From IMG/VR virus record IMGVR_UViG_3300020477_001475, positions 1 to 64,000 of that record: DNA of 64,000 bases, one strand, 5' to 3'. The translations under genes and the position numbers were made by a program. Origin of the DNA: a virus. A model generated the notes under the pieces. The model worked only from the letters and a program-made list of their open reading frames with translations, did no database searches and had not been told where the DNA came from. This document shows positions 16,692-55,775 of this stretch, in pieces; position 1 is the first letter of the stretch; each line of letters starts with the position of its first letter.

Positions 16692-17777
16692 TCATCGACC
16701 CACTTCTTTTATAAACTTTTTTTTAGATTCTTCATAAGTCAATCCAAATAGTTTATCCCAAAAATGTAATTCTGATATTTCTCTTTTATCAGATTTTAAT
16801 TTATTAAATCTTTTTTCTGCCTTTGGTTTCCACCAATCCATCATATATTGATTATAATTTACGAACTTTTCTTGTAAAATTAAAGAATCTTGTTCAATAT
16901 CACCACATAAAAAATCATTTGTATTTTCGTAGAATGGACACCAATAAATTCCTCTCTGTATTCCATGTTCAAATTCACTTGTCTTTAATCCGCAAGTTCT
17001 ATATATCTTACCGAATGCACCCAATCTATCTTTACTCTTTTCACCAAAATATTCTTCCCATCTTTTAACTACAGGTCTGGGTAATTTAATTGGCATTTTA
17101 CCAGATGTTTTTCCCATCTTTTTAAATGTTGGTAATCTATTATATTGTGAGAAAGTTCCATATAAAGATGTAGTTGTCATCCCAACTAATTTGTCACCAT
17201 AACTGCATTCCCACACATTCCTAATTGTATCTGATGTTATAAGTAATGCCATCAGTTTACCACCAAGAAAATTAAACCCGAATGGTTGTATGGGTATTAT
17301 GGCCTGCCCACATGCAATATTATTCAACCTTTTATTTTTATATCTATCATCTCTCACCCAACCAATATATTTATCCCGTGCACCCAAGTCACCAAAATCA
17401 GAAGTTACTGTTAATGCACCAAGATACAAACCAGTTGATTCATCTTCAACCAAAAATTTAAGGTTTCTGCCGGGGTTCGACACATTTTTGAAACTTGAAG
17501 TGAATCGTATTAAGTAGCGCCAGTCATCTAATTGTTCTTTTGTTTTTACATGAATAACTTTTGGTTTTAAATTAGTAATATCCATGTTATTCCACAATTT
17601 ATTTTTTAAAGTATTTATTTTAAATTGTTCACCAATACAATCTTGTATTTCCAAATACTTTTCGTAAAATACTGCTTCCGATGAATCTTGATTTTTTTTC
17701 ATTTCTATATAATCAAGAACTTCTTGTTTTTCTTTTTCAAAATCAAATTTAGTATCAAAAAATTTATCTACCAACAT
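16692..17777 (-). CDS. DUF4338 / DruA-like protein, copy 1
   Basis: The protein has 361 residues. The core shows NPGRNLKFLVEDESTGLYLG, RDKYIGWVRDD, the FGFNFLGGKL segment, R..WE..YGDKLVGMTTTSLYG and YNRLPTFKKMGKTSGK. These match the DUF4338 pattern (loss of the strand LGxxxxxS, then RDxxIGW, then YN..W..lG.T.G) best known from DruA of the Druantia anti-phage system. The family also occurs in phages. No activity has been established that I can state. It is a tandem paralogue of the gene upstream, overlapping it by 14 nt. The family call is moderate and a defence or counter-defence role is inference. Confidence 0.72.
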   Translation of the reverse strand: MLVDKFFDTKFDFEKEKQEVLDYIEMKKNQDSSEAVFYEKYLEIQDCIGEQFKINTLKNKLWNNMDITNLKPKVIHVKTKEQLDDWRYLIRFTSSFKNVSNPGRNLKFLVEDESTGLYLGALTVTSDFGDLGARDKYIGWVRDDRYKNKRLNNIACGQAIIPIQPFGFNFLGGKLMALLITSDTIRNVWECSYGDKLVGMTTTSLYGTFSQYNRLPTFKKMGKTSGKMPIKLPRPVVKRWEEYFGEKSKDRLGAFGKIYRTCGLKTSEFEHGIQRGIYWCPFYENTNDFLCGDIEQDSLILQEKFVNYNQYMMDWWKPKAEKRFNKLKSDKREISELHFWDKLFGLTYEESKKKFIKEVGR

Positions 17778-18930
17778 CAGTTAAATACTTCTCCTTTGCT
17801 TCTTCATAAGTTATATCAAACATATCAATATAATATAATGTTTCATCTTTTATTCTATCTTGTTCCAAAAGTTTTGTATATCTTTTGATTGCTTTCTTTT
17901 TCCACCATCTGTTAATGTAATCATAATCTTCTACAAACTTTTTCTTCATAACCAGTTCACTATCATCAATTTCATTTCGTAGATATTCTAAACCATTATC
18001 ATACATGTTAGCAAAGAATACACCTCTCTTAAATCCATGTTCGTAATCTTTAGCTTTAATACCAAGATGTCTAAATATTCTATTTATTATATTTTGTTTA
18101 GGACCAGTGGCATGAATAGCTTTATCATATTCATCAAAGTGATTTTCTTTTAACCAATCACTCCAAACTTTATAAACTGAATCATCTGGTTTAATAGATA
18201 TTTTACCTGTGGATTCACCCAATGTTTTCCAGTGTGGAATACCATTGTATTGAGAATGCACACCATAAAGAGATGTAGTGGTTACACCAACTAAGATTTC
18301 ATTGTAATTTTCATACCATTTATCTCTGATAGTTGATGTTGTTACAAGTGCTGATAGTAATTTACCACCGAGAAAATTGAAACCTAATGGCTGGGTTGGA
18401 ACTATGGAAGTTCCTATACAGGTATGATTTAATTTGTGATCTACAAATTTATTATCTTTGGTCCATTTAATATAATCATCTCTAACTTTAATTGATGTTA
18501 CATCTGAACCAACTGATATTACACCAAGATATTTACCTGTAATACTATCTTTAGCGAAGAATTTAATATTTCTACCTGGGTTAGCTGTAAACTCCATAGA
18601 TGATATTAATGTTCTTAAAATAGTCCAGGTTTCATTATCATCTGTATATTCAACAATAGGATCCAATTTTTCTATTTCAGATATAGTAAGTTCTTTGTTG
18701 GTTATATCTGTTGGTTTCCATATTCGATTATACATCAATTCAGCTTTATGATGATTCTTTCTAAACTTTATTCTAATCTTTTCATCTTTATTAAATTCTT
18801 GCCATTTTTTATACAATGTTTGTTCTTGCACAGACATTGATTTTAACATATCAAGATTATCTATAAAGTTTTGTCTTTCGTCATCGAAATTGAATTCTTC
18901 TATTTCGAAAAAATTATTAATTATACTCAT
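17764..18930 (-). CDS. DUF4338 / DruA-like protein, copy 2
   Basis: The protein has 388 residues from the ATG at 18930. An ATG-ATG at 18948/18945 is in frame but lies inside a plausible -10 element. It shares with the next gene NPGRNIKFF, the RDDYIKW block, QPLGFNFLGGKLLSALVTTS, GVTTTSLYG, SQYNGIPHWKTLGESTGK, an EHGFKRGVFF stretch and the terminal TYEEAKEKYLTDVGR. The pair therefore arose by tandem duplication and has diverged widely at the N-terminus. It has no good ribosome site, and a promoter at 18936-18965 could give a nearly leaderless transcript. The role is unknown. Confidence 0.72.
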   Translation of the reverse strand: MSIINNFFEIEEFNFDDERQNFIDNLDMLKSMSVQEQTLYKKWQEFNKDEKIRIKFRKNHHKAELMYNRIWKPTDITNKELTISEIEKLDPIVEYTDDNETWTILRTLISSMEFTANPGRNIKFFAKDSITGKYLGVISVGSDVTSIKVRDDYIKWTKDNKFVDHKLNHTCIGTSIVPTQPLGFNFLGGKLLSALVTTSTIRDKWYENYNEILVGVTTTSLYGVHSQYNGIPHWKTLGESTGKISIKPDDSVYKVWSDWLKENHFDEYDKAIHATGPKQNIINRIFRHLGIKAKDYEHGFKRGVFFANMYDNGLEYLRNEIDDSELVMKKKFVEDYDYINRWWKKKAIKRYTKLLEQDRIKDETLYYIDMFDITYEEAKEKYLTDVGR

Positions 18931-18935
18931 ACCAT

Positions 18936-18965
18936 AATATAACATCATTCAGTCATAAAATACAA
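18936..18965 (-). promoter_or_regulatory. Candidate promoter of the DUF4338 pair
   Basis: On the minus strand, TTGTAT is followed after 18 bp by TATATT at 18936-18941. It resembles the early promoter set elsewhere in the window but with CTGTTG instead of ACGTTG. The predicted transcript start falls at the gene start, which would make the message nearly leaderless. Confidence 0.4.
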
Positions 18966-32382: not shown

Positions 32383-33552
32383 CTAGTTAGTTGAGGAACC
32401 CGCTTCGCTCATTTCTTCTTCCGAGAAGAGATTTTCATCAGTGCCGTCATTTATGAACTTTTGAACAATTTGTTTCACGAACGTTCTTTCAGAATCAACC
32501 CCACCAGCGTCATCATATTGAGGATAAATACTAACTTCAGCTGCTTCTTCTAACTTGAAACCATCGAATAGTAACCCAGATAATTCAACTGTCGTTCTTG
32601 TACTAATACCAAAAGGAACTCTTGCGGTTTCAGACTTTGATTCAGATCGCGTCATCGAGGCAATCTCAGAAACATTTTTCAGAATTTCACTATCTACGTG
32701 AGGAAACATATATGTAAGAAGTTCATATTCTTCTTCTTGAGACAATACATCCATTTCAACAATTGTGAAACGATCCATAAGAGCTTTGTCCATAACCCTA
32801 GTCGATGTATATTCATTACCTATATTAGCGGTGGCCACAAACGTAACCCCTTGAGCAACTTTTACAGTCGCTTGAGTATCTTGTTCATCCAACCTTAAAT
32901 ATCTTTGACCGTAATCTAATACTGTCATTAAAATATTCCAAGCGTCAGGATGAGCCCTGGATAATTCATCTAATAGTATCACCGCGTTTGGTGTTTGAAT
33001 TGCTTTAACAAAAAGTGCTTCTGAAAAGTATGTTCCAGAAGATTTTTCGAAATGTGTATTACCAATAAGAGTAGCTCGTGGATCTTGAGTCGCACCTAAG
33101 TTGAAATAAAAGTCAGGTCGATCAAGTGAGTTAACCAAAGCTTTAGCTGCCATAGTTTTACCACAACCTGCAGGCCCGGTCATCATAATATTTTTACCAC
33201 GAACAGCTGATCTTACTAAATACTTCCACTTTAATTCTTTCATCATCAACCCTTTAGGCTTCAATGAATATGAATTATGAATGAAGTTAAGTACTTCGGC
33301 GTGATCCGTTGGGATTTCCACACCCATAGTTGCCGTTTCAACAACTGGTGCAGATTCTACATTGTCAACCCTACGCCAGTAGGTCTTACCAGTAGTACCA
33401 ACAAATCTACCTAATAGATAATTCCCTTCGAAGGCTTTCCTACGGCAATTTGTGGTGATTTCAGAAGTACGCTTAATACCATCAGTATCCCAAGCGTTAA
33501 ACCGGTTACCCGATTTCTCAATCCTTACTATTAAATTTGGTGTCTTGTTCAT
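32383..33552 (-). CDS. MoxR/CbbQ-type AAA+ ATPase
   Basis: The protein has 389 residues. It has Walker A GPAGCGKT (126-133), Walker B VILLDELSRA (191-200), sensor-1 FVATANIGNEY and the DKALMDRF arginine-finger segment. All fit the AAA_5 group (MoxR, CbbQ, GvpN), which remodel protein complexes with a VWA partner. No VWA gene is in the window. The N-terminal 110 residues are unlike the family and hold a beta-rich domain. The DNA is less AT-rich than neighbouring genes. It follows the early promoter at 33601. Confidence 0.9.
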   Translation of the reverse strand: MNKTPNLIVRIEKSGNRFNAWDTDGIKRTSEITTNCRRKAFEGNYLLGRFVGTTGKTYWRRVDNVESAPVVETATMGVEIPTDHAEVLNFIHNSYSLKPKGLMMKELKWKYLVRSAVRGKNIMMTGPAGCGKTMAAKALVNSLDRPDFYFNLGATQDPRATLIGNTHFEKSSGTYFSEALFVKAIQTPNAVILLDELSRAHPDAWNILMTVLDYGQRYLRLDEQDTQATVKVAQGVTFVATANIGNEYTSTRVMDKALMDRFTIVEMDVLSQEEEYELLTYMFPHVDSEILKNVSEIASMTRSESKSETARVPFGISTRTTVELSGLLFDGFKLEEAAEVSIYPQYDDAGGVDSERTFVKQIVQKFINDGTDENLFSEEEMSEAGSSTN

Positions 33553-33797: not shown

Positions 33798-33832
33798 AAA
33801 AAAAAGGCGAGAGGATTAAACTCGCCTTTTTA
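33798..33832 (-). terminator. Intrinsic terminator of the structured RNA
   Basis: There is an 11-bp stem AAAAAGGCGAG / CTCGCCTTTTT with a 9-nt loop, followed on the minus strand by nine T. It is functional in both directions on paper, but the T run is longer on the minus strand. Confidence 0.88.
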
Positions 33833-33964
33833 TAGTGTTGTAGGGGAAGAAAGGACTAAAGACCCCCACAACCGAGTGATAAACGAATAGTGAGGAGAGA
33901 ACCACGAGGGACTGGAAGTATTTCGCGACCGAACTACAATCAAGTATGGTGGTTGCTCTCTTGA

Positions 33965-34036
33965 GCGGAATCGTAGAACTGCCCTACGCTCTATACACTG
34001 GTATGTGTATCGTTTCTCTCTTGAAACCTATTCCGC
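33965..34036 (-). ncRNA. tRNA-like cloverleaf B (72 nt)
   Basis: On the minus strand: acceptor GCGGAAT/ATTCCGC, 2-nt linker, arm GTTTC-AAGAGA-GAAAC, 1 nt, arm ATACAC-ATACCA-GTGTAT, 4 nt, arm CGTAG-GGCAGTT-CTACG, then the acceptor strand with zero linker and a TCA tail. These are exactly tRNA spacings. The D-loop GG and T-loop TTCRA are absent, so it should not be a functional elongator tRNA. Confidence 0.7.
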
Positions 34037-34046
34037 AATTTTTTGA

Positions 34047-34118
34047 GCGGGATTTAGGAACTGCCCCTAACCCTTTACACTGGAATGTGTAACGAATCTC
34101 TCTTGATTCTTATCCCGC
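34047..34118 (-). ncRNA. tRNA-like cloverleaf A (72 nt)
   Basis: Acceptor GCGGGAT/ATCCCGC, arm GAATC-AAGAGA-GATTC, arm TTACAC-ATTCCA-GTGTAA, arm TTAGG-GGCAGTT-CCTAA, TCA tail. The architecture and loops are identical to copy B. Differences in every stem are compensated base for base. Confidence 0.7.
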
Positions 34119-34282
34119 AAATGTATAACCTTTATTTAATTTTCCTGGCCCGCCGACGCCATACTTGTCGATGACAGATAAGTGACTCTTAATCCTAATC
34201 GGAGGAAATTAAATACTTTCTATGTCAAAAATCTTTTTCTAATTACTTCTGAAGTGACTTGCCCTCAGTCGAACCCCCATTG

Positions 34283-34372
34283 GTTACGAATTATAACCCC
34301 AGAAGCATCTCCTTAATGCCCTAACCTACTTATCAAACCGGAGAAGGCCAGTAAGTATCAAACGGGCGGTGT
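34283..34372 (-). other. 16S-rRNA 3' decoding-site-like motifs in ncRNA
   Basis: On the minus strand, ACACCGCCCGT (34362-34372) equals the start of helix 44 in 16S rRNA. AAGTAGGT lies in between, and CTGGGG...TCGTAAC ends at 34283. These are in the order found in rRNA, about 79 nt apart against about 91 in E. coli. Sequence between is otherwise unlike. It could be rRNA mimicry or chance. Confidence 0.45.
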
Positions 34373-34417
34373 TACACGATTTTTAAATTCATATCATATC
34401 CTTTTCCATTATACTAT

Positions 34418-34453
34418 AATATACGGCTGATCTGCCATACAAAACAACGTTTA
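34418..34453 (-). promoter_or_regulatory. Early-type promoter of the structured RNA
   Basis: TTGTTT (34442-34447) in AACGTTGTTT, then 18 bp, then TATATT (34418-34423). It has no TGTTACA pair, unlike five of the nine set members. A predicted start near 34411 gives the RNA its 5' end. Confidence 0.65.
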
Positions 34454-34655: not shown

Positions 34656-34692
34656 AATATACGGCGGTTCGGCCGATCCTACAACGTTTTTG
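34656..34692 (-). promoter_or_regulatory. Early promoter, 51-aa acidic gene
   Basis: The -35 is TTGTAG (34679-34684), with a 17-bp spacer and TATATT (34656-34661). TGTTACA boxes lie at 34699-34705 and 34709-34715, 14 bp upstream. Confidence 0.8.
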
Positions 34693-36819: not shown

Positions 36820-39800
36820 TCAACAATTTTCAAGTGTAAGACAATCATCTTGTTCAGCTGATATATCCACCATCGATGATAATCCTCCAAAATCACCAGT
36901 AACATTTGTACCATCAGCAGAATAAAAACCTTCTTCAGTTAATCTTAATTCTTGACATGATTGAAAATCTAAATAGTGTATCGGGTAATGTGATGCCCAA
37001 TTAGGAACATGACCTCCTGGTGTATTAGAAACCCCATCACCAATAAAAGTAAATGGTGGGTTATCAGCATTCAAATCATGCATAGCAATTAAACCACCAG
37101 AATGACTTTCACCAAAATGATCATACCACATACCTTCATGGCTCGTTGTTAAATCTACGCACCCGTGAGTAAAAGGTACATCTACATATTGCTCCATACC
37201 AGCTACACCTCTCATACCCATGGTATATTTAGCTATATTAAATGCATACGCATCATCTCCACCATGATAATTTGCAAATGCCACATCTGTATCTATAGTT
37301 TTCTTTACAGTTAATGCATCAGTGAGGCTAGGATAAAATATATCATAAGTGCTTGGATTATCAGCACCAAGAAATTGATATATAGGAGTTGTGTTAGAAA
37401 ATTGTTTCATTCTAGTAATATCAGGATAATCAGGAGCCATTGTATTTACTGGTTGATAATTACCGTCACTAAATTGGGAATAATTATAAATTATATTTTC
37501 GCAATCATTATCTTCAAGTTCTTCATACGTATCACAGTTATCAGCAGTTGTTAATGTCCAGGTTCCATTTGGATAGTCCGCACCATCACTTTCACAATGT
37601 TCGTTACTGTCTGTACAATACCAATACCAATCTCCCACAGCTGTTCTATATGTATGGTATGCATCAGGATCATAATAAGTTTCCGTCCAATTACCATTTT
37701 CCGGAACTGGATCTAATTCCCGATTGGCTATAACAGCATCACATGAAGGACCTTCACCATCTATCAAGTTTTGTATTGAATAACCTCCATCAGGTCCATC
37801 TACAAAAAATCCAGGTTGTGTTAATATAGTTGCTATATTACCACATAATGCTGAATAATCAAGAAAACCTGCTCCTGCAATAGCAGATGTTGATATCATA
37901 TTTGGTTCAATTCTAAAATTTTCAACATACTCCACATCACCTTCAGCTATACCACCTATTTTACCCATCGTGACATCATATGTATTTGGATTATAATAAT
38001 TTGGTGTACCAGTTGCCATTGGTGCAGGAGGCCAGTTAGAACACATATTATTATTAAAACCAAAACCTTGATTATGAAGCCCATCACTACAATCAGTCAT
38101 ATCCCACCAACCCCAAAATTTAGAAGGGTAACCTTTCAAAGATCCCACACCAAATGCATTAACTTGATATGGGTAACCGCCTTTATTAGGAGCTATGTGC
38201 AATTCATTCATAAAATGACCTTTATAACCCCATTTATTAGGTAAAAATTTAGGTACCCATATTTTTGGATTTCTCATCATACCATATTTTGGGAATTCAG
38301 TAGCAGGTTGTTTTGTCAGCTTTATACCTATTTCAAATTTTACTTTTGTACCTTTGGGAATTATACCAGTTCCAACTAATTTATGCCAATAAGATCCATC
38401 AGTATAATCTCCACCTGGATTTAGACGACCTGCAGCGCCAGTAGGATCACCACCTGAATCATAATCCACAAAATTCATTAAATCACTCATAGGTCCACCA
38501 CCTACAGACCATTCACTATAACCCCATGCTTGTTCTCTATCACCCATTGAATCACCACTATACAAATGTAAAGTACTTGGATTATCTGATTGTATATGAG
38601 GAGTAGTACCATAATCACTTCCAGGAATATTACGTTCACCTGGTTGATTAAAACTGTGAGAAGCACCTTCGTGATGTATCCAGCCAGTATCTATATCACC
38701 CCAAGAAACTCTATATACCAATGAATGAACTCCCCTATTACCTGCACCAGACCTAATAGATTTAGATTCAGCAGACATCATTATATTATAAATGGGTACA
38801 TCTTTATCGAATACAATAGTTTTTTGAAAAAGTTTATTAAGACTACCATATCCTGAATTTGTGGAGCCCCATGGTATTTGAGTGTCCCACCAATCAGGAT
38901 CCATAGATGAAGGGTTATTATGATGTTGCATACACCCAGTATAACAATCAGGACATTCTTCTCCCCATCTATCGATGTAACCCTTACCACCTGAATATTT
39001 ATCACTTACTTCATGCATACCAGAAGTTGTAGTTCCTAAAGTTGGACAAAGTACAGGCTCACAACAGCTTCCATTATTGCATATTGAATTAGAAACGGTG
39101 AATCCAGGTTGAAGTCCTGTAAGCATTTGTGAAAAATCTTCTAGGAATTCCCAAAACCATCCAGGTTGTTGTCCTTCAGCATTACCCCATCCAACACAAT
39201 AAGAAGAACCTTGTGCAGGATCCATACCAAATGGCCATGGTTTTTGATGTACATCACCATTAGGATAACTTTCATCAGGAATATATCCTGTATCAGCACA
39301 ACCATCATCATAATAACCATTATGCCAAGTACCTATATCACTCACAGTGTTGTCATTTACATCAAAATAACCACAACAATCTGCAGAACAAAATTGAGAT
39401 TCTGAATAAGGATCCACATTACTTGTATGATATAAATTAGTATCAGTCATTCCTAATATATAACCTCTTTCACCATCAGACATTTCAAGTTCACCACTAA
39501 TAGAATTATCTATAAATGTATCTCCAACAACAACTTGACCTGCCAATGAATTATCGTGAGTACTATTAGGACAAAATCCACCACATATAGCTCTACCACC
39601 ACAAGCATTATTATATTGATAACCTTCATCAGTACTTGTTGTTGGGTGAGATTTTAATTCTTCTCGAACCGACCAACCTTGATCGATTATTTGACGACAT
39701 TGAATTTGACCTGGATAAGTATAATTACCATCAGGATCATAAGCAGGATACCATTCACTATAACAATCATGGCTTCTCGTATCTCCACAATAAGGATCAC

Positions 39801-42800
39801 AACAACTGTAAAATTCTTCTTTATTAGCGACTAAATCAATAGAATCTTGATCATTAGTAAGGTATTTACTACAACCATAACTACCATCACCAAAATAATT
39901 TATAAAACAAGCATTTAAATCATTAGGCCATTCATACTCTAAGTCTTTACATAAACTACCTTGAAATCCTTCAGTCGCAAGTGGTGAAATTCCCAAACAT
40001 TCTCCATCCGGACAATCACTATTATCAAGTGAAGGTATACATGCTACTCCATGATTAGATCCACCATGACAATAACCTGCATCTTCACCTACTGCCATAT
40101 CAAACATAGCACATTCAAATATACAACCAACATTCGATTGGTCTGTAAATTCAATTATACTATTTGGATCAGCACAACCATGTTTATTATAAATACAGTC
40201 ACTTGGTTTATGTATAGTTATGTCATCACTTTCTTCATAATTACCGTAAGGAGGTATAGCCCCAGGATCTTTACAACCCAAACAATCTTTATGATCATGA
40301 GAATAAACTTTACAACCACAATGTAAATCCAACATGTCACCAGTATCTTCAGGATAATCAGTTGTTATATTAACTTGATGTATAGGATCATATGGCCATA
40401 TTGGAATATCATGAGTTTTTAAATCCCATACAACACTTTGCCAATAAAAATTATCTTCCCAATCCAAATCACCATTAGAATCTATTGGTTTCCTACCGTG
40501 TATATTTGTATCACCAAACCTAAATCCACCATAATAATTTGAAAATAATAATGGATATAAAACATCATCATTATGATAATTGGCACTACATTCACCAGTT
40601 TTAGAATATAAAGGTTTACACTGACCACTACAATCAATATCAGGTCCACCATATATAAATTCACCTAAATCATAATTTGTAGTAAGTCTTGGGAAATTGC
40701 CTATAAATGTATCACCGTCATCCAAACAAACACCACCATTTTGATCACATGTAAAGACTTCCACAATATCACCTTCAAAATCGGCGGGTTTAGAAGTTCC
40801 TCTCCAATGCGGTGAATTTAAATGTGTTATTTCACCTATATCATTTTTTATATTTGGGCAATTACGAATTGTATAAGGACTATTACATATACCACATTCA
40901 TCCAATTCACCATATTCAGTAAATGGATCTAAATTATCAATTCCAGTATCATCAGGATAAGTATCACAGTTACAATCCATTCTACGAACACCGGAACCAC
41001 CGTCATCAGCTCCAAAACTTTCTAAAGGACCCATACCAACCACACATGTTTTTATTCTCTCTGAACTATCGTCTTGTGGTCCAGGTACACAAACTTCATT
41101 TTTATTTTCCCATAATTTAAATAACCCACCAGGATCATCTGCACCATATGGGCCTATAGGATGATGAGGATTAACATCATTTACACCATCTTCACCCCTC
41201 ATATGTTTATTATCGGGATGTGTAATTATTTTTAAAGCCTTCAAAAATGGTATGTCTAATAATGCATTGTCTAATGGTATATACTGACCATCTTCATTTT
41301 CTTCAATCGTTTCACCATAATCAGACAAGGAATCGTTACAAAATTCATCGTATCTATAAACATACCCATAATTTAAACCTGCACATTGATTTAAATCATC
41401 TAAAACATTAATCCTGGCTGTCAAAGATCCAGCTGGTACACAATTTCCATGACAATCAGTAAAATTATATTCACATTGACACGCTGATAAAGTTGGTTCA
41501 TAACAACCGACTTGATAAGGATTACTACAATCTACTTCACCCATGTCTATAAATTCACCATTTTCTTCATCATAATAACCACATACAGGATGTAGTTCAT
41601 TTCCCGTAGGCCAATCTACTGGTTCACCTTCATAATCTGGAACACACTCCCAATCTTCACCAATACATGAAGAAAGTTGTTCACATTCATCATAATCTTC
41701 ATGATTTCCTAAACCTAAACAATTACATTTTCTAACAGCATCTTCAATTAATTCATCACCAACAAAAGGACCCATCCAACCAGGATGAATTCCACCGTTA
41801 GCCCACCATACATTATTATCATCACAACATTCTGGATTTGTATGATCAAAATTAGAATCCCTAAAACAAGGATACCCTCCAAAATTCTGATTATCTTCAG
41901 TATATGCTCCACCACTAACATCATCAGGATTCTTACAAATAGAGTTCTGATTTATATAACCAGTAATAGGTGAATAACAAGCATTTATACCAGTATGATT
42001 TGAATATGGATCATCAACTTCCCAGTGATAATCCCATCCCAAACATTTTATATCACCCCAATAACCTGTACCAGTAGAAGGAAGATTATTAGAGCTATTT
42101 CCAGTTGTTGGGAAAGTACAATAGTCCATTTCACATTGTATTTCTTCAAATAAATCATACCCAGCTTCAGCAGCAATTTGTTGACATCTATTATCAAGTT
42201 GAATTCTTCCAGAATTATTACCACTATAATTCATTAAAAATTCTATATTGGGTGCATCACATGTTGTATCAAAATCATTAAATGCTTGTTTCGAAGAAAA
42301 ATCAGACCAATTACCATCATTTAAACCTATGCATGCACCACGAAGTGGGTTACATCCTGAACATTGATATTTGCCAGTTTTTTCATCAAAGCATGTAAGA
42401 TTTGTATCATTTTCACAATAACCATAATTATCAGGTTTATTATTTTGAAAATTGGTATGATCAAATTTTAAAAATTCAGCTTGGTATATCCATTCACCAC
42501 CTTCATCAATACAATCAGACTCTGAAATATCATCACTCAAACCACCTTCACCTAAGTCACAATAATTTTCAAGATTTGGACAAGGTCTTCCATCAGAATC
42601 CCATCCGTCACCCTCACCATCACGTTTCCAAGTTAATGGCATAACACCACTTCTGCCGTTATCGGTTGGTAAATTAGGAGATCCAGCTAAAGAATGTTGT
42701 CCTTTATCCGGTATATAATTCCAACAACCACAACCATTATTTCCATAAAGATCTTCATCTGATCTAGTACCACCTTCACCCGAGAAAACATATTGACTAT

Positions 42801-45800
42801 TAACACAAGCTCCACAACTACCACCATGAAAGAATCCACTACCAAATCTAAGACCAGCACAATCGTATCTATATTCACAACAATAATTTTCATTTACTGT
42901 TGTACCATTATTACTACAATTGGTATCATCGTCATCCCACTCTTCATATTCACCACTATTTGGTCCGGTGATATATCCTCTTGAAATTTCAAAATCATAA
43001 CTTTTTAGAACAACATCTTCCCAACCTTCATCCAATCTTTGAAATACCAACTTAAATCCTCTACCATAAATTGGTAATTTAGATGGAACATCCCATTGAA
43101 ATACACCGGATCCCATAGCATCAGGAGATAAACTAGTTATAAACTTATGATTAAAATGATATTCACTATCTTCATCTAAATTAAACATAGGGTCTATAGA
43201 AAGACCTAAATTTGGGTGATAAAGATAAACATCAAAATTTCCAAGCCATAATTCATCTATGGATATTGTCCATTCAACAGATTGTGTGCTACCCGGTTTA
43301 AAAATACTACAATATGATGGAACATCTATTCTACCATCATCAACCCAACCATCTATAACATATGATTCATATTCAGCTATACATTCTACTACTGGTGGAT
43401 GATTTGGTATATCATAAACACCATCTCCATCTTCATCTGATTGGCAATAGAAATTATCCACGACACCAAAATTATAATCACCCCAACAATAATAATTTTC
43501 CGCGTTTGAATCAGTACAAGCTTTTATTGGTTCGTAAACACAACATTTTAAATAATTACAATCACTGGATGTATTCCACAATCTAGCACAAGATGAAGGG
43601 TTTCCTTCACCACCATCACAATCTTCGACATTAAAAACAGGTAAAACTTGAGAGTTAGTACCAAATAAACCTCTTCTAATTGTAACATAAAATTCACCAG
43701 AGTAATTAATATCTTCTGTTGATATACTCAAAACTTCAAAAACATCTAAATCATTACTATTATTATAATTTATAAAATCAGTATCAAGTATATCACCTGG
43801 TGTATGTGTTATATAAGAACCTACACTTAAATTCCATGGTCTTTCAGTCCATTTTTTAACAGTTAAAATCAATTGATCTGCTTCACCATCTACAGTAGAT
43901 TGATTAACAACCATTATATCAGTTTCTACAGGTGGTGAACCTGCAAATAAACAATCGTGTAATAAATTATTTTCACAATCACGAGTAGCATCAGGGTCAA
44001 AATTGAGAGCTCTATCATCTTTACACCCATAATCAAATCCAAATTCACAACAAGAATTATATCCATGTGAAGTTGGGTGAGATGTATTATTACATACATC
44101 ACCAACTACAGTTTCTTGAGCATCATGATAATATTCAGGACAAGGTTTTAATCCATTTCCACCAAAATCAGAATCACAAGATATAGCAATACCATACCAC
44201 CAATGTATATTAAAACATATACCTTGACCAGAATAACCACCTTCATCACAACCATATCCATTCGATAAACATTCTACACCGTCATCTCCCACTTCTTCAT
44301 TACTATTATAACCAAATGCTTCTAAACCTAGTCCAGTTGCATTTGTCATATTCCAATCACCTGTACAAGAAAAATCACAATCTTCACAATTAAAAACAGA
44401 TAAATTATTTCTACAACCAGTACAAGATTTATTCCAGGATTTATCAGATGGTACTTTAGTATTATCATCAAAAGTTGTTTCATATGGTGCCGATGAATGT
44501 AAATTATATATACAATTCCTGGCACCAGTATCACAATTACTTCTTTTAAATGGGTTCAATCCTACACCATTGGGATCGGGATATTCATCTGGTAGTTTAA
44601 TAGAAAATCCATCACACGATTCTTTTATACAATAATTTTCATCACCATCACATTCATCATTACAATTATTATTATCATAAATCGTACCATTAATATCATC
44701 AGAACATACATAAGAAATATCACCTTCACCATTTGTATATTCACATACACCTTGTAAAGCTATACCATTTAATGCAAAACCATCTTGTGCAGGCCAACAA
44801 TAACCTGAACATAATGATTCATCACCACTACAATCTACACCGAAATTATCATAATTTCTACAATACGAATTACCTACTGTTGCTGATGCTGATGATCGAC
44901 ATTCACCACAGTCATCATACAAATTTGAATAACAAAGACAAGATATACCTTGCTCATCAGCATTGTTCACATGAGGGAAATTACATATATTACCAGCAAC
45001 ATCACAACCATCGTCTTCACAGTTACAATTTTGACAAGTACCGCCCGAATCTGTACAATGTCCACTGTATGCTATTTGTCCTTGTCTATGTAATCCAATA
45101 TTATCACATCGGAATTCTTCATATTCATGATAACCAGTTTCCCAACAACCTATCCCATCACCATCTACATCTGGATACCACTTCTTTCTATATTCACAAC
45201 TACTGTTATGATGTGTTGCATCCGAATTATAATTACACACATAATCACTATTTTCATATTCTTGACATAAACCTATACAATCATTATCAATTTCAAATTG
45301 AGTAGTATCTACATTGAATATATCTTCTTCACTATCGTATTTACAATTTATCCACTTCATACCACCAGCTAAATCATCAACTTCACATCTGGTTAAAGGT
45401 CTATCATCCATACAACCATATACTGCAGAGTTTACTGTAAATTGTTCAGATTTTTTTATTAAACAATCATCATCTTGATAACATCCCGCTGGATAATATA
45501 CAGTTATTTCATAATCACCAGGCGAATAATCTGATAACCCATAAGTAACATCATTATTTTCATCACCAAGAGTTATTTTATTGAAGTCATCACCAGATGT
45601 ATTTAAAAGAAATATAGAACCACCTGGCTGTAATTCTACACAATCACCACTACACACACTGTTATCCCATATACCATCAATAAAATTCCAACATAAGGGA
45701 GGATCAGAATCATCATCACTAACGCATCTAAACCCACCAGGCAATCCATCAAATGTATTACAATTATTGAAACCATTATCATAATAGATTCCAACAGTAC

Positions 45801-48800
45801 AATCCACTTTCTTCACAGAATAAGAAAAAGTTTCATTTGTATAATCATCATCTGGATTTGTATTACGAATACAATGATATCCACCATCATAATATGAACT
45901 TATATCTTGATATATACTGTCATTTTCACTTACATCATTTAAATAAAAATAAAAAGGATAACCTTCGTATATAGTTGGTGCTCCATTTTCATTAGCATAA
46001 CTTGGTTCTATTATATCCAAATTAACACAAGAACCAACACAACCTTCTGGGTCAACATCATCAAAATTATCTATAAAACTTGGATATGTTAATACATCAC
46101 ATTCTTCAAAAGTACAATCTACATAATTTTGACATAATTCATCACTATATTGGCCAACTAAATCGGCGTCAACCAAACTCATACAATAATTGTGATATTC
46201 CTGACATACACAAGAATTATCTTTACATATATAGTTATCCGCTTGAGCTTCTACACAAGCTTGGTGATCATTATTATCACCATAATATGGAGGTTCAACC
46301 CACCAACCACATGTATCTCCTTCAATATTATGTGGTGCAGTAGGTATTTGCCAATAATATCCATTTTCATCATAAAAAGTTTGATTAACAATTCTTAATG
46401 GCCAATTATTTGAAAAATCTGAATCATTTGGGCAAAAGAACACACCACCATCACATTGTGCATTATTCCAAACCCATATTTCAATGGCCGTAGAATCAAA
46501 ACCTAAAACATCATATGGAAATGGATCCCATGTACAAGCTCCACCATAACCATAACCATCACCATCCCAATCTAAATAGTAAGCAGTTGGTGCTGGTCCA
46601 CCACAACCACATCCATAATCTAATATTTGACTATCAATATCACCCATATCACCAAAATTTTCATCTTCCCAACACATACCCATACAATTTTCTATAGGTA
46701 CATAATCAGAATTTATAGCTAATTGAACAAGTGATGGCCAATTATCCCAATTATTTATCAATACTGTATCCCATTCATCTGGAGTATTAGAACAATCAGG
46801 ATTAAATTGATCATCCAAACACATGAATCCGAAGGTAATATCTGTCACTCCACATCCAGGAATTAAATCTTCGGCATCCATTTCATCATCAGTTACAACA
46901 TCATACCAATTGATATAATATGGTATCCAAGCATCTACACCATCTAAATAAGGTTCTACATAACAAGGCTCAGATCCACCACCAACGATATATGTTAAAA
47001 ATTGATTTTCATCTACATTGTAATAGCAATCCAATTGATATACCCAACCAGGTATATGATAAAAAATACCATCTATGTCCTTTTCACCACAAAGATAATG
47101 AACCATACCACTCGCCAAACCATCACCATCTGTATCTTCCCACCATGTGTACTGACCACAACTGTCATTACCGGGTAAATCTTGACAAGATGTTAAACAA
47201 GCACAACACATATCTGTGTCTGGATTATTACATTGTACCCAATCATCTACGACACAACAATGTTCAACTTCATATTGACCAGTAGAATCTATAGTATGAT
47301 AACAATACTCTTTCATTTGAGTCCAATTAGGATCATTTATAGGATTATCATTACCATCATAACAAGGAATACCTTTACAATCACTACAACTCGTATTCCA
47401 ATCTTGATTATTAGGTATTTTATAAACACCATCTTCTAAATTTGGATTATCCATACAAGGGTTATTATTTTTATTAAAATAAAATACATTGTTTACATCC
47501 AAGTCATTTTTATACCATACTTGATTGTTATAACTAATCGCTGTATCTGTAAAATCAATATGACTCACATCACCAGAACAATTCAATTGCATACAAACAC
47601 CACAATCATCTGATTTTAAACGGCTGTTATTACCACTACAAGTATTGGTTAAATCCACCGTACATAAATTACTGTCATCATAACCATACTCCAATGGATC
47701 ACATCCATATGTTATACCATTTATAGAACTACATTCTTTGTCTGGTGTAACTGCTAGAGTATTACACACATTATCGGTACAAGGTTCACCTGTAACATTA
47801 TCACATATCGTAGTAGGTTCATTATTACATACCCAAGTATCTTGACAATAACCTTCCAATTTACATTCTTTTCTCCAATCCCTATAAACATCATCATCAG
47901 CAAAACAATCTCCACAATAATCACGACAATCATTATCATTCATGTAATCACAATATATGCATGTATCATCGTCATCATCATAACACCTGTTTTCATCTGT
48001 ACTAATACAATAACCACCCACCACCAATGGATCAGATTCATCTAATACATTAATACAAGCATTTTCTAAACAATTTTCATCTTCACTACCAAAATAACAA
48101 TTAAATCCCCAAGGCTGATAGTTTCCATCACCTATATGTTCACATGTAACACAACCTTCATCGTCCCAATCACCCAAACATATTTCATCTCGAGGCATAC
48201 CAGATGAATAACCATCACCATCTTCATCAGAATAACAAGTTTCTACATACCCATCACCACCACATTGATCACAAGTATCACAATCAGTACCATCATTACA
48301 CACACCATTACAACCTTGTGTCGCACAACCCAAAGACAACCCATTTTCACATCCAATTGGACCTTTACATTCATATTCACCATCACCATCACCAAGATCA
48401 AAACAAGTACCATTTGGACATTCTGGACAATTTTGTACACTACCATCATCAGGTATAATATAACCATCTGGATGTATTTGTATACATGTATGTGATGCAT
48501 CTAAAATATTACCATCTTGATCTCTACAAAAACTCATACATTCATCTTCATGACCTTCTTCCACACAATTACCACAAGAATCATAATAATCAGTATCACA
48601 TTCACAATAAGCATCACCAACAATAGATTCACACATACCAGCATTTTGTGATTCACAATAAACATCACCACTTGATAAAATACCATTCAATTGGTAAACT
48701 TTATCACTAGGATCACATTGTATATTTGTACCATAACATATACCACCTAATATAAAATCATTACCACACATTGAATCTAAACTTCCATCTTCAATCAATT

Positions 48801-51800
48801 CACCAGCAATATCATAACAATACTTAACCCATGGAAAGTCACACGCTGCACCATCACCATCACAATCAGAATAAAAAGTTAATCTTGTATCAACTAAATT
48901 AGCTATACATTCATTATTATTTCCACTAAATCCAATAGGAGGTGGACAATTTTCACCTATTTGGACATCATTAGGACATGATGGTCTAAAACAATTATTA
49001 GGACTACCACATAATGCTGTAGTATTAGTACGTGGATTACATTCTATACCACCAGATTCACCACCACAAGTATATTCATTACAAATTCTATCATAACCAT
49101 CTGTATCATCCCAAACAACTGGATAACAAAATTCACCACATGTTATAGTAGAATAACTTGGATCACTACCATCATATTTAAATTTACACGAACCATCTTC
49201 TTCGGTTGCAAATGGATTATAATTACAAGCTTCTGAATTAGTACAACCCCATACTTGACAATTCCAGTAAATATTACCTTCACTACTTTGACATACTTCT
49301 GGATTAGCAACGAATCTTATATAAGATGGATTAGTATCAGAACCAGATGCACCATAACCATATTCAAAATAATTGGACCCCTCTTCTTTACTTGCGGTAA
49401 ATTGTGCCAATATATATATGTTACCGTCATCAGGATTAAAAATTCTTATAGTATATTCATTTAAACCAACACCATCATATTTAATATTCTCTGGAAAATC
49501 ATATAGAGGTTTACCTTGAGCTCCTCTAGATAAACAATATTCATCACCTTCACAATCAGTAACTTCAGGATACCATGTATTGTCATGTGTACTTAATAAA
49601 TAATGCCAATCCCAATTTTCAGCAGTTTCTTCAAATATATCATCATAATGTGGATCGGTATCATTTAACAAATATTGAAATACTAATGGTGAAATATTTT
49701 CAGTCGACCATAATCCATCCCAAATATATAAACAAGGATCATTCTGATTATTGTCACAATACACAGAACAATCAGGATTACTGTCAGGACATTCACTATT
49801 ATCATCTGAAGGTAAACATGGTTTTTCTTCACCTGTTTGGCAGAAATAACCAGCTTCAGGATATAAACTATACCAGGTTTCATCTTCAGTACCTGTTAGT
49901 TCATTTACAAGATACGGTGGTTCAATATTACCAATATAATTTATATTAAAAGGAAAATGTCTGAATGTAGGCATAATACCTTTTATTTCACAATCTTCAA
50001 CACTTGTACAAGAATGGTTTGGATTGGGTAACCCAGATTGTAATGCAAATCCTTTGAATATACCAACCACATGATTGTCATAAGGAGATATATCACCATT
50101 ATCAAAATAACCTACATCTGGTACAGGTTGTCCTAACCAATCACCACCTTCTAAAGTTTCACCTTCAATTAAATTGACATTCATATAGAATACATCACCA
50201 TTAGGACCGTGAGAATCACTTACATTATAATAAGAAGTATACCAATTAAAAGGGAAATTTTCTATACAACTACCATCATCGTCTTCACATCTAGCAGGAT
50301 ATCCACCATTGTCCGGTAATGCTGCATCAACATTTACTTCACATTCACCAGCACTCAAATAAGATAGTTTATTTCCAGAAGTAATCCATTCATTTGAAGT
50401 ACTTGCATCAAAATGAGAAAGTGATTTCCATTCATAACTTTTCCATTCCGGAGTTAACCATTTTGCATATATCCATTCCCATTCATGACCACTCCACCCA
50501 TTTGCGTGATTACAATAATCATTATAATCTCTTCTACTACTACTGGAATAACCAATACCATGATGATCTTTATGTCCTGGTCCAGCACTTCCTATGGGAT
50601 ATGGTATATTACCCCTTATATCAGTTTCTTCTCCATCAGATGCATCAAAAAATTCTCTACCATTATCTGTATGATGATAACCTCTAGCTTCACCATAATG
50701 TATTGCTGCATTTTTACGATCCCAACATATACCATATTTATTATCACACCTATCACCACCACTATTATCAAGTCTTTCATCCAAAAACCAGTAATATGTT
50801 CTAATTTCACTTTCATCATCTTCCCATTCCCATGGAGGTCCAGTAGGAGTACAATCACCACCATATAAGCAACCATCAGTATCATAATCACCCATTAAAT
50901 TACTAAAGCCAGCTGGCCAATAATTAAGATTACCACCATCTTCATAATAATGTTTATCATATTTTTGCCAATGATAACCCCAGTCACAACCCACAGGACA
51001 GCCATCGTATTCTTCAGGATTACCAGTTTGTCTAATTATAGAACCATCATCAGGATTACTTAAACAATCATTAGATAAACCCTGATAAAAAGTATCTACA
51101 CTCCAAGAAACATATTTATAACATTCTCTTTGTGGAGTTAAAGCCCACAACTCAGTTGGACCACCCATTATAAAAGTTATTCTGTTTTCTTCATTTAAAG
51201 GTGCATTACCATCCCAAGGCCATTGTGCATAATCATCTTCGTGTAAACCACCTAGTGGTAAGGTAGCTCTTGGTAAATAACCACCTTCTGCCGACAATAG
51301 TATTTCGTCGCCTTCAAACCATTCACCATCATCTGTTTCATCACAATCATCTTCATTATCAATATCAGGATAACCATCACAATATGATTCACCTCTATAC
51401 CACCAATTTTCGTCATCCATTAAATCAAATACACAAAATCCTGTAGATTCACATTCATCTTGATCAGCTGCAACTAGTGTTTCACCTGTTAAGGGATTAA
51501 CACAAATTCCCATATCTTCACAAGTACTGTCATCTTCATACAAATCTGTAAACCATTCCAACACATTATCATCATCATCGTATAATACACAATAACCATA
51601 ATCTGTATCACCACAATATGTTTCCACATCAAAAGTTTCGGTGCACCCTTCACCTGTATTTGGATCACTCCCATCACCACAAGATTCTACTATATAACAA
51701 TTATTAAAACCTTCACATTCAGCTTGGTCCATAGTATCAGTTAAAATAACTATTGGGTCACAACATTGAGAACTATTATCACATTCATGAATAGTACCAA

Positions 51801-52190: not shown

Positions 52191-55100
52191 TTAATTACCT
52201 AAAATCATATTTACTATGCTTACTATGTCAGTTACATTAACTTGACCATCACCATTAACATCAGAACATTCTGTTAAATCATTTCCTACAGCACTTTCTA
52301 AACTTAAATCCACACCACTCAAAACAAAATTAACAATACTTACGACATCAGAAACATTAACATCACCAGTACCATTTACATCACCCGGAATACATGACAC
52401 AACATCTTCGACAGTACCACTGAATAAATATCCAAAAACATAATCTATTTTATCATTTAATTCTTGTTCTTTTTGTGTTATCCTTTCACTCTTTAACTTT
52501 ACATTCTTCTTATTAGAAAATGTTTTAACTTTAGTGTGAAGACTTCCAATTTGATCAGAAAATGAAATTATATTTGATGTTCTGTATTTAGTTGGTATTA
52601 TATTAGTAACAATAACTTCAACTACATCAGAACCTATCATTTCTTGTTCAGGTAATCCAAATGTTTCACCTAAAACTTCCAACTTAAATTTAAGAACAAT
52701 TTCATCATAACCTTGTGGTAATTCTGGTGCTTCCCATTCCAAATATGGAGATTCAGACCAAGGCAGTATATGTTCTGGTGTTCTTCTTTGTGGGTTAATA
52801 GGGTTATCTGTAATTGGATTTCCTATAAAAACCCATTCGTTACCATTCCAACGATACCATCTATATTTCAATGATTCAGTACTACCATCACATATAGAAT
52901 TAGCAGCTTGAAATGAATTACTACCATCTAACACAAATTTTCTCAATGGTTTAACCCAAAAATCTTCATTAACTATTGCTACAACTGGTGGTATTATAGA
53001 TGTAGAAACTTTAAACCCAGGTTCAAGTCTATGTACATACTCCCAACTACAACCATTTTGTTCACAATCTTCTTGATTTGTAATTGACAAATCACATTCA
53101 CAAAATTCACTATACCATTGTCCTCCTGATGAATCTTGTTCCCATTCAAATACTCTATGGTCATCGTCAATAATATTATCCGTATATGCTTCTATTTTAA
53201 ATAAGAAGTCAGTATCATAAGGTTCTTCTGAATTGTTATATGGATAACTACCACCATATCTTATCCATTCCCTACAAGATAAATTTTGCCAATCATATAT
53301 GGAATTATATCCAATAGAATATGAAGTATCATTTATATTAAAACCAGAATTAGTAATTCTTATATCAAAGGGTATTTGATATAAATCATCAATACCTTGT
53401 ACAGTACCAGGATTAGAAACTGTAAACCAACCATCTCTAGGAATTTCAAATAAGTGTCCATATTGGTCGTGTACCCTTGATACAATTCTCAATCTAACAT
53501 CAGTTATAGTTTGTGTACTATATACTTGTGCACGAAATTTTATAATATCATCTAAAATTACAGATGGAGTATCATAATCACAATCACTTGGGTTATGATA
53601 ATACCAATCAAAATCATAATTACCAGCATTAGGATCACTACAACCTGTACAAACATCCCAAAAATCTAAACAACAATTACCCTCATCATACATACATTCT
53701 AATATATCACAAGAACAGTAATCACCACCAACATTAGAATTCCCACATTCATCTACACATGACCCTCTAAATGAACAACAAATTTCATCAGTACCAGATG
53801 AAGGGAAAGTTTCATAAATATTACCACCACAATCTACCCACACAGATTCACCATCATAAATACCTGTTGGATATGGATCAAAATTAATAGCTTCTTGATT
53901 TAAACATTCAGCACATACAGTATTATCACCATCACAAATATTACAAACATCAATTTCTGAATCACAGTAACATAATGCTTCATTATCTTCATAATCATTA
54001 GTATCAATAAATTCGTAACCATCAGGACAACCACCATCTATGACAAGATTTTCATCACCTTCACATGCAATTAAAATTTGGTTATCTTGGAAATTACACC
54101 CAATACCATCACAATCATAATCCAAATAATAACATTTAGGTGTTATACAACAACCATCTAACCCGTGAGTTTCAGTACATTGAGTATTAGGTATACCTTC
54201 TTCCCAATTAGTTGTCCAAAAATTATAAATTACATTTTTATTACAATAATCGCCACTTCCACTTATCATACCATTAGCAACACCAACACAACCAAAATCA
54301 ACTGCATCTTGGTCAAGATTGTCAACACAACCCACAAATTCACAATCACCAGAATCTACTGTACAAGTTTCACAATAATTGAAAGCTCCTTGATCTGTAC
54401 AACCATAACAATAATCATCATCTTCAAAACCATTTGGAACACAACCACAATGTTCAGTGAGATATTCTTGATTTGTACAACAACATTCACAATGTTCTTC
54501 ACCATCTTGATGCCCTAAATGATTTTGACATTCACAAGGACCATCACCATTACAGATACCACATTCATCTTCTAATGCACTACCATTACATGAACCTTCA
54601 CAATCAAAATAATTTTCTTCACAATCACAATATTCATCCGCTTCACCACAATCTTCTGTAGTAGGGTATTCAGTACATTCTTCAAATCCTGGACACCAAT
54701 ATTGTAAATCGTCACAACATCCTATACCATCACCATCTGAATCATAATAACGAATATTTTCATAATATGGATTACACAAATCTGGGTTGTGATGTACTCC
54801 ATCTAAATCTTCAGCACAATCTACTACATTAACTTCATCACAATTATAATTACCATTATATATACCTTTAGCTTTAGGATTCAAACTACTAATATGATGG
54901 ACATGTTCCTCATATAAAACTTCATAATCACCAAAAGTTGGATTATCTATACCTGAAATAGCTGGACAAGGACATTTATCTATACCTTCAGGACAATCTA
55001 CACCATTAACACCATCGTCACAATAAAATAAACATCCAGAAAAGATACAACAACAATTCTCATATTCACAATCAGGACATTGAGCACCAGCATTATCTGC

Positions 55101-55775
55101 ACCAGAATCTTCATCACATTCATATGTAAGATCACATTGTAAATCGAACAAATCACTTCCATCTAGATAACAGTCCCAATTCGGATTAACAATATCTCCA
55201 GGATACTCCCAATTTTCAGTACAAGGATTTGCCATTAGCATTCCAATTGAATTACCAGAAATATCTGAACACATATCACCAAATACATCTGTATTACAAG
55301 AACAATGACCCCAAAGATTTGGATCAACAGTTTCATCTTCCCATACATAAAAATAAGCATCATGGGATAGACCATCATTACCATCGGTGTTATACCAACA
55401 ACCATATGGATGTGAGTTACCATTGCTATCATTACAAGCACCACCTTCAAATGCATTTAGTACTGGTACTGCTGTCAAATTAACACAAGGCCATTCACAA
55501 GTTTCTAATGTATCTTCTATATTTCCAGGAGTTGTTGTTTCTACTGCAATAGGTGATGTTACATTTTTAGAAGCTTCTATTGCATCTTGAAATTTTTGTA
55601 TATTAATCCGTTTTTGAATTTCTGGTTTTAATTTAGGGTTTGTTGTAATTAAAACTTTATCCTTTTCTTTTTGGGATAATTTAGTCTTTTGTTTTGGTGG
55701 AGTTTTAGGTTTAGTTGATTTCTTTGACTTGTCAACATCCACTATACCCACATTAATTTCAAAATTACCACTCAT
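52191..55775 (-). CDS. Cys-rich protein with C-terminal dockerin pair
   Basis: The protein has 1194 residues. A Lys-rich N-terminus (residues 1-60) is followed by a Cys-rich region like the giant protein (CTDQGAFNYCETC, GCSDPNAGNYDFDWY). An Ig-like segment then follows near 760-900 (SVILDDIIKFRAQVYSTQ). The C-terminal domain near 1120-1194 holds two dockerin repeats: GDVNGTGDVNVSDVVSIVNF and SDVNGDGQVNVTDIVSIVNM. Dockerin Ca2+-binding loops are intact in both. It is probably a fibre component joined to a dockerin-binding partner. It lies 11 nt upstream of the giant gene and shares its composition. Confidence 0.8.
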   Translation of the reverse strand: MSGNFEINVGIVDVDKSKKSTKPKTPPKQKTKLSQKEKDKVLITTNPKLKPEIQKRINIQKFQDAIEASKNVTSPIAVETTTPGNIEDTLETCEWPCVNLTAVPVLNAFEGGACNDSNGNSHPYGCWYNTDGNDGLSHDAYFYVWEDETVDPNLWGHCSCNTDVFGDMCSDISGNSIGMLMANPCTENWEYPGDIVNPNWDCYLDGSDLFDLQCDLTYECDEDSGADNAGAQCPDCEYENCCCIFSGCLFYCDDGVNGVDCPEGIDKCPCPAISGIDNPTFGDYEVLYEEHVHHISSLNPKAKGIYNGNYNCDEVNVVDCAEDLDGVHHNPDLCNPYYENIRYYDSDGDGIGCCDDLQYWCPGFEECTEYPTTEDCGEADEYCDCEENYFDCEGSCNGSALEDECGICNGDGPCECQNHLGHQDGEEHCECCCTNQEYLTEHCGCVPNGFEDDDYCYGCTDQGAFNYCETCTVDSGDCEFVGCVDNLDQDAVDFGCVGVANGMISGSGDYCNKNVIYNFWTTNWEEGIPNTQCTETHGLDGCCITPKCYYLDYDCDGIGCNFQDNQILIACEGDENLVIDGGCPDGYEFIDTNDYEDNEALCYCDSEIDVCNICDGDNTVCAECLNQEAINFDPYPTGIYDGESVWVDCGGNIYETFPSSGTDEICCSFRGSCVDECGNSNVGGDYCSCDILECMYDEGNCCLDFWDVCTGCSDPNAGNYDFDWYYHNPSDCDYDTPSVILDDIIKFRAQVYSTQTITDVRLRIVSRVHDQYGHLFEIPRDGWFTVSNPGTVQGIDDLYQIPFDIRITNSGFNINDTSYSIGYNSIYDWQNLSCREWIRYGGSYPYNNSEEPYDTDFLFKIEAYTDNIIDDDHRVFEWEQDSSGGQWYSEFCECDLSITNQEDCEQNGCSWEYVHRLEPGFKVSTSIIPPVVAIVNEDFWVKPLRKFVLDGSNSFQAANSICDGSTESLKYRWYRWNGNEWVFIGNPITDNPINPQRRTPEHILPWSESPYLEWEAPELPQGYDEIVLKFKLEVLGETFGLPEQEMIGSDVVEVIVTNIIPTKYRTSNIISFSDQIGSLHTKVKTFSNKKNVKLKSERITQKEQELNDKIDYVFGYLFSGTVEDVVSCIPGDVNGTGDVNVSDVVSIVNFVLSGVDLSLESAVGNDLTECSDVNGDGQVNVTDIVSIVNMILGN

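Follow-up and report, generated by a model that had tools for sequence, protein, structure and literature searches.

What is an RNA that has the cloverleaf of a transfer RNA, is missed by tRNA-finding programs and travels in marine phages with genes for DNA-modification-type enzymes? This question is raised by a stretch of 64,000 nucleotides (nt), hereafter the window, which is part of the 108-kb virus record IMGVR_UViG_3300020477_001475 and carries two tandem copies of such an element on its minus strand. Here we show that the element belongs to a covarying family that has retained the features read by glycyl-tRNA synthetase (GlyRS) and accompanies the genes mom and druA. The best explanation, and one that we hold to be reasonably probable, is that these RNAs are phage-encoded non-ribosomal tRNA-Gly molecules acting as the glycine donor for DNA modification by Mom or DruA.

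A covarying family of cloverleaf RNAs

Each 72-nt copy consists of a 7-base-pair (bp) acceptor stem, 2 nt, a 5-bp arm with a 6-nt loop, 1 nt, a 6-bp arm with a 6-nt loop, 4 nt, a 5-bp arm with a 7-nt loop, the returning acceptor strand and TCA. A prior inspection of the letters alone (the sequence-only reading) had described these two cloverleaves with exact coordinates and arms, and structure prediction agrees with it. When each copy is folded alone with RNAfold, the cloverleaf is both the minimum free energy and the centroid structure (z -4.3 and -5.0), and it is also kept when the copies are folded inside the surrounding 671-nt RNA. The middle arm can equally be read as a 5-bp stem closing a tRNA anticodon loop (U33, N34-C35-C36, A37). 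Thus the proposal that the bases typical of tRNA loops are missing holds for the D-loop GG and the T-loop TTCRA, but not for the anticodon loop. The arms follow the tRNA spacing 7-2-5(4)-1-5-4-5, with an anticodon loop of 8 nt in the window copies and 7 nt in most others. Neither ARAGORN nor Rfam, including its tRNA model RF00005, matched the element copies in the window.

Relatives were collected by searching IMG/VR with DNA patterns that specify only the loops, by fetching sequences through the adjacent AAA gene and by covariance models. About 50 distinct relatives were found in other phages, with massive compensatory change in their stems. All 33 occurrences (26 distinct) of a loop-fixed, stem-free pattern form all four stems, as do 34 of the 35 occurrences of a second such pattern, whose sole failure (L242) likewise lacks a mom gene. 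Because stem-free loop patterns are a fair test of the fold, the cloverleaf is not a product of chance. In a 31-sequence alignment of relatives, 97.9% of pair cells are standard and double-sided changes number 226 versus 63 in shuffles, a signal that is destroyed when the pairing partners are slid by 1-3 columns. The compensated stem differences first noticed between the two window copies are therefore a property of their metagenomic homologues as well.

Chance matches were screened out along the way. Identity-blind scans of all fetched DNA yielded only about a dozen scattered matches outside the family, and a stricter descriptor gave one match in 1.17 Mb of shuffled DNA, so random cloverleaves were rejected as a source of the family. 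Five pattern matches without the fold (L005, L007, L009, L010, L242) were discarded, and five from a genome collection (L222, L223, L225, L226, L227) are chance pattern matches; L224 and L228 from the same collection are genuine and adjoin mom in a planctomycete metagenome-assembled genome. BLASTN of the elements against isolate phages returned only ordinary tRNA-Gly or chance matches, and the copies in cultured phages described below were detected by covariance model.

Glycine identity is retained while translation features drift

Bacterial GlyRS recognises tRNA-Gly through U73, G1-C72, C2-G71, G3-C70, C35 and C36 (PMC9976931; PMC9908026). Both window copies have G1-C72, C2-G71, U73, C35 and C36, G3-C70 is usual in the family, and the anticodons found across it (ACC, UCC and CCC) all belong to glycine. 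Since patterns can impose what they find, one scan was run blind to the anticodon and another blind to position 73. The former recovered C35-C36 in 26 of 26 distinct copies, with A, C or U at position 34; the latter recovered U73 in 27 of 27. In these blind scans position 33 was occupied by all four bases and position 74 by C, T or G. Across 48 distinct copies, U73 and an NCC anticodon are each present in all 48, and UCCA is encoded in 16; both cultured pelagiphages encode it too. Where the element lies within the mom reading frame, positions 33, 36 and 73 all fall on third codon positions; position 33 drifts there, with C36 and U73 fixed. The tertiary bases of the D- and T-loops drift across the family, and all copies of the window type have GGCAGTT, AAGAGA and A8 and lack TTCRA, GG and U8. 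Retention set against drift in the blind scans thus indicates that the bases read by GlyRS are held and those serving the ribosome and the canonical elbow are not.

The family grades into recognisable tRNA-Gly. ARAGORN calls the relatives L104-L112 tRNA-Gly (tcc/acc), and weaker relatives keep the T-loop TTCGATT. RF00005 scores 62 bits for L112 and L109, 60 for L104, 57 for L110, 50 for L108 and 42 for L105, and gave no match for L102, L128 or the window-type copies tested. TTCRA, the D-loop GG and U8 occur only in part, in the intermediates L102-L112, and a further set (L252-L257) consists of tRNA-Gly(UCC) with the same unusual shape, a 5-bp D stem and A8. Because ARAGORN and Rfam call the intermediates tRNA-Gly, the window copies represent the far end of a tRNA-Gly continuum. 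They share with bacterial tRNA-Gly charged by a U73-reading GlyRS the cloverleaf spacing and the identity bases, but differ in a 5-bp D stem with a 6-nt loop and, in some lineages, in the dispensability of U33. An origin from tRNA-Gly is strongly supported, and the RNA is very probably a degenerate, dedicated tRNA-Gly. The earlier suggestion of an undescribed tRNA mimic is borne out insofar as a covarying, tRNA-shaped family escapes the standard searches of the window; "mimic" does not suit an RNA with a glycine anticodon and GlyRS identity that grades into tRNA-Gly. tRNA finders consequently overlook a family of phage tRNA-Gly.

Could the element simply be an ordinary phage tRNA-Gly that has drifted and serves phage glycine codons in translation? 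Its recognisable tRNA-Gly relatives, and the fact that tRNAs are common in phages, speak for such a role, yet U33 is unconstrained in some of its members and U8, the D-loop GG and the T-loop bases have been lost with stems and GlyRS identity intact. Two genomes, G033 and G049, contain an ordinary tRNA-Gly besides the element, and the element is the only tRNA-like match in the cultured phage HTVC008M. G036, with a tRNA cluster that includes an ordinary tRNA-Gly, has neither mom nor druA, and the link to these genes described below is not predicted by use in translation. We therefore disfavour this explanation and regard it as highly doubtful.

The element accompanies mom and druA

The window genome contains two elements, two mom genes and two druA genes. 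Association was assessed in 50 whole virus records, namely the window genome and 49 others chosen by their AAA gene and not by the RNA. With a first model the element was found in 15 of the 50 records, all 15 of which have Mom or DruA, versus 7 of the 35 others (p 8e-8). The family model found it in 20 records, 20 of 20 with Mom or DruA; two records have mom or druA without the element, and none of the 28 records lacking these genes has it (Fisher 5e-12, a value that, like the first, overstates independence, the records being fragments of related phages and the family model, R2, having been trained partly on copies near druA or mom).

In phages beyond the window family, nearly every structured match lies over or directly against mom (PF25680). 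The element is found at the 3′ end of mom in L002, L004, L006, L008, L207, L211, L212, L216, L218-L220, L224, L228 and others, and at the 5′ start in L011, L105, L107 and L128, the last of which has a tandem mom pair with one element copy per mom. Two matches depart from this rule: L217 has no mom in 10.9 kb, and in L208 a mom C-terminus forms part of a chimeric frame. In L104, L106 and L108 the element stands directly upstream of druA. Distances are larger in the window family, about 50 kb from mom in the window genome and 2-5 kb in L023 and L013. The element has no fixed place with respect to mom, yet no target-site evidence for a mobile element was found.

In some phages (L006, L008, L011, L128, L211, L212, L216, L218-L220, L224, L228 and others) the element sits inside the mom open reading frame (ORF) in a constant reading frame, and the same bases may encode both the Mom terminus and a functional RNA. 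A protein-coding origin was considered, several phages being open in the mom frame (xAxxVSREIxxNTIxxGxGQFxxxAQ), and was rejected because each of the three frames is interrupted by stops in some member and the window copies are non-coding.

This arrangement invites the alternative of a cis-acting regulatory tRNA mimic within mom and druA messages, a structure to which Mom, DruA, GlyRS or a processing enzyme would bind and which would control expression. tRNA-like operators act in this way in some synthetase mRNAs, and many phages have the element over the start or end of mom, sometimes in the mom frame, or directly upstream of druA. In the window family, however, it forms a separate RNA gene kilobases from mom, and its placement elsewhere ranges over 5′, 3′ and distant positions. 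A cis-acting element also accounts poorly for a CCA end encoded in a third of the copies and for the full charging identity set being kept, and we judge this alternative unlikely. A decoy, as the sequence-only reading had proposed, would be an uncharged or dead-end mimic titrating GlyRS, a tRNA-processing enzyme or a host defence nuclease that targets tRNA. Retained synthetase identity with lost translation features is what a GlyRS sponge would look like, and some phages, such as L020, have the element in what appears to be an isolated transcription unit. A sponge, however, has no need of encoded CCA ends and leaves unexplained both the co-occurrence with mom and druA and the single copy per mom in L128; we consider it decidedly unlikely.

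Two cultured phages of Pelagibacter HTCC1062 carry the RNA with a UCCA end: Mosig EXVC030M (MT647606.1 7780-7852, minus strand), with a T-loop, GGCAGTA, near the window type, and HTVC008M (KC465899.1 91140-91212, plus strand), where it lies beside cobS. Both have a DUF4338/DruA gene. In Mosig, the hypothetical protein Mosig_000011 (MT647606.1 7774-7869) spans the atypical tRNA-Gly and has probably been annotated in error.

Other genes and RNAs occur near members of the family. Directly upstream of the element and mom, L105 has two sub-threshold matches to the manA RNA (RF01745) on the minus strand (1721-1907 and 1927-2110; 40 and 26 bits). A gene for a D12-class N6-adenine DNA methyltransferase follows the atypical tRNA-Gly in L111 (325-1230, by Pfam) and L112 (667-1587, by sequence similarity), a further neighbour concerned with modifying DNA. 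Related marine phages (L253, 218-620; L260, L261, L263, L264) encode, some 1-2 kb away from druA and the atypical tRNA-Gly, a transfer-messenger RNA (tmRNA) with tags such as EYDYSPMVAVTNDEPTYAYA.

A putative glycine donor for DNA modification

RNAs that have kept the features for GlyRS, lost those for the ribosome and are carried along with mom and druA probably feed glycine to a DNA-modifying enzyme. In phage Mu, the base modified by Mom is alpha-N-(purin-6-yl)glycinamide (Swinton et al. 1983, as cited in PMC4461284). The best structural match of the window Mom model (predicted local distance difference test, pLDDT, 89.5) is Mu Mom (8bv8), with a GNAT fold. The loop [RQ]xxGx[GA], which binds coenzyme A (CoA), is absent from 41 of 42 Mom sequences, the window Mom among them, and an N-x-x-S segment (usually NxES) stands at its site in those Mom sequences where the region can be located. 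For DruA, too, a model of modest quality (pLDDT 75) suggests a GNAT-like fold, with a best Foldseek E of 2e-3.

We propose that the transcript would be processed to the cloverleaf, with a CCA end that some copies encode and others would need to receive from the host, and that host GlyRS would charge it with glycine through the retained identity bases. Loss of the canonical elbow (D-loop GG, T-loop TTCRA and U8), and of U33 in some lineages, would keep the charged RNA from EF-Tu and the ribosome. From the glycyl-RNA, the glycine would then pass to a DNA-modifying enzyme with a GNAT fold: most phages would use Mom here, and others probably DruA. N6-(carbamoylmethyl)adenine, the known product of Mom, could form by transfer of the glycyl group to adenine N6, followed by intramolecular rearrangement to the glycinamide. 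Charging, exclusion from translation, donation and chemistry are what we infer beyond the structure, covariation, tRNA-Gly ancestry, retained GlyRS identity and gene association demonstrated above. That these steps combine into tRNA-dependent DNA modification, in which a dedicated glycyl-RNA, derived from tRNA-Gly and barred from translation, is the donor for base hypermodification by both Mom and DruA, has in our estimate a somewhat better than even chance of being correct.

Non-ribosomal tRNA-Gly is known from Staphylococcus, where GG18-19 is replaced, EF-Tu binding is weak and glycine is donated to FemXAB for the cell wall (PMC4052509). The phage elements resemble these in keeping glycine identity and replacing GG18-19, but the staphylococcal RNAs are still recognisable bacterial tRNAs with a known use in cell-wall synthesis, whereas the elements are encoded by phages, have diverged much further and are associated with enzymes of the DNA-modification type. 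Aminoacyl-tRNA transferases offer a further precedent. The Mu mom system, in which mom depends on Com for translation, has a Mom of the same family and fold as the homologues that accompany the RNA, and its product is a glycinamide-adenine; it differs in that no tRNA partner is described for it in the papers searched. So far DruA is known solely as part of a bacterial defence against phages, Druantia. DruA-family genes (PF14236) lie directly downstream of intermediate forms of the element and occur also in the window; the Druantia protein differs in that no RNA partner is reported in the literature searched.

Several points, besides the limits on the Fisher values, weigh against glycine donation by the element. 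A CoA ester, glycyl-CoA, has been assumed as the donor for Mom (PMC7824862). DruA is a candidate, not an established, glycine-transferring enzyme. Among the 80 best Mom loci, only one has the element within 10 kb; a linked copy is therefore not required for Mom, and the remaining phages would have to draw on Gly-tRNA of the host. No Mom is detectable in HTVC008M or Mosig, though RNA and DruA are present.

The donor for Mom is not established in the papers searched, and a mom-linked RNA that keeps only its glycine-charging features makes the donor question testable, with HTVC008M and Mosig available as cultured phages that carry the RNA. We found no paper linking Mom to a tRNA or glycyl-tRNA in the open-access literature, to which the search was confined, so that a report elsewhere is possible. 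If correct, the proposal would supply the donor that the Mu mom reaction still lacks and assign DruA a function in biochemical terms. It would also extend non-ribosomal use of aminoacyl-tRNA to DNA chemistry, for which we found no report, and connect the defence protein DruA with that chemistry.

The RNA gene and its surroundings in the window

The two copies belong to an RNA gene (Table 1) across which the ORF list has no long ORF on the minus strand. Because a promoter scan gave no signal above chance for this gene, the ends of its transcription unit are putative.

Table 1 Features of the window and, for mom, of the genome outside it
Feature	Position	Strand	Basis or remark
Element copy 1, atypical tRNA-Gly, anticodon UCC (CAUUCCAG loop)	34047..34118	-	D-loop AAGAGA, T-loop GGCAGTT
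Copy 1 discriminator base U73, followed by C74; no encoded CCA	34046	-	sequence
Element copy 2, atypical tRNA-Gly, anticodon ACC (CAUACCAG loop)	33965..34036	-	D-loop AAGAGA, T-loop GGCAGTT
Copy 2 discriminator base U73	33964	-	sequence
Putative transcription unit of the RNA gene, from promoter-like GTATATTATAGTATAAT box near 34430 to terminator hairpin	33798..34450	-	sequence, ORF list
Second conserved RNA module of the RNA gene (GAGA..ACC..CATACTTG ... CAGTCCCTC..GGTTCTCTCCTCAC)	33888..33960	-	
Terminator-like hairpin GGCGAG-TTTAATCCT-CTCGCC, then T run	33798..33830	-	sequence
AAA ATPase (MoxR/CobS-like) gene, directly downstream of the RNA	32383..33552	-	also adjoins the element in cultured phage HTVC008M
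DruA (DUF4338) gene 1, GNAT-like fold	17764..18948	-	
DruA (DUF4338) gene 2	16692..17777	-	
Two tandem mom genes, outside the window	G000:C1 84828-85523 and 85517-86338	-	PF25680, 172 and 169 bits

It had also been suggested that the element has no tRNA function and is a structural or packing part of a larger, ornamented RNA of the phage, and in the window the element is indeed part of an RNA gene of about 600 nt with other conserved modules. In L020, however, it occurs by itself, with a promoter-like site on one side and terminator hairpins on the other, and in other phages it lies in or beside mom genes, always with glycine identity. Nor is there an Rfam match to known large RNAs: tmRNA, GOLLD, ROOL and other large ornate RNAs gave none at the gathering threshold and none with E<=10 in the region. 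We disfavour the packing module, which is scarcely credible on these data.

The second module (GAGA..ACC, GCATACTTG, CAGTCCCTC, GGTTCTCTCCTCAC) recurs within the RNA gene that occupies the intergenic stretch ahead of the AAA gene, in the window and in L013, L014, L015, L016, L019, L022 and L087, and is found even in relatives without the tRNA-like element. Terminator-like hairpins occur at 33798-33872 on the minus strand of the window and at the same place in L013-L020, often with TTTAACTCCTTT or similar loops; as anti-Shine-Dalgarno loops, these complement AAAGGAG, the ribosome-binding site of the gene downstream. Boxes resembling promoters, with AACGTTGTAGGATCGGCC or AACGTTGTTTTGTATGGC ahead of GTATATT, recur on the minus strand near 34680, 34445 and 33630, upstream of several transcription units. 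The virus record carries a T4-like baseplate gene. Further along the window, a 5119-amino-acid ORF (36820-52179, minus) is followed by a 1194-amino-acid ORF (52191-55775, minus) ending in a dockerin type I-like domain.
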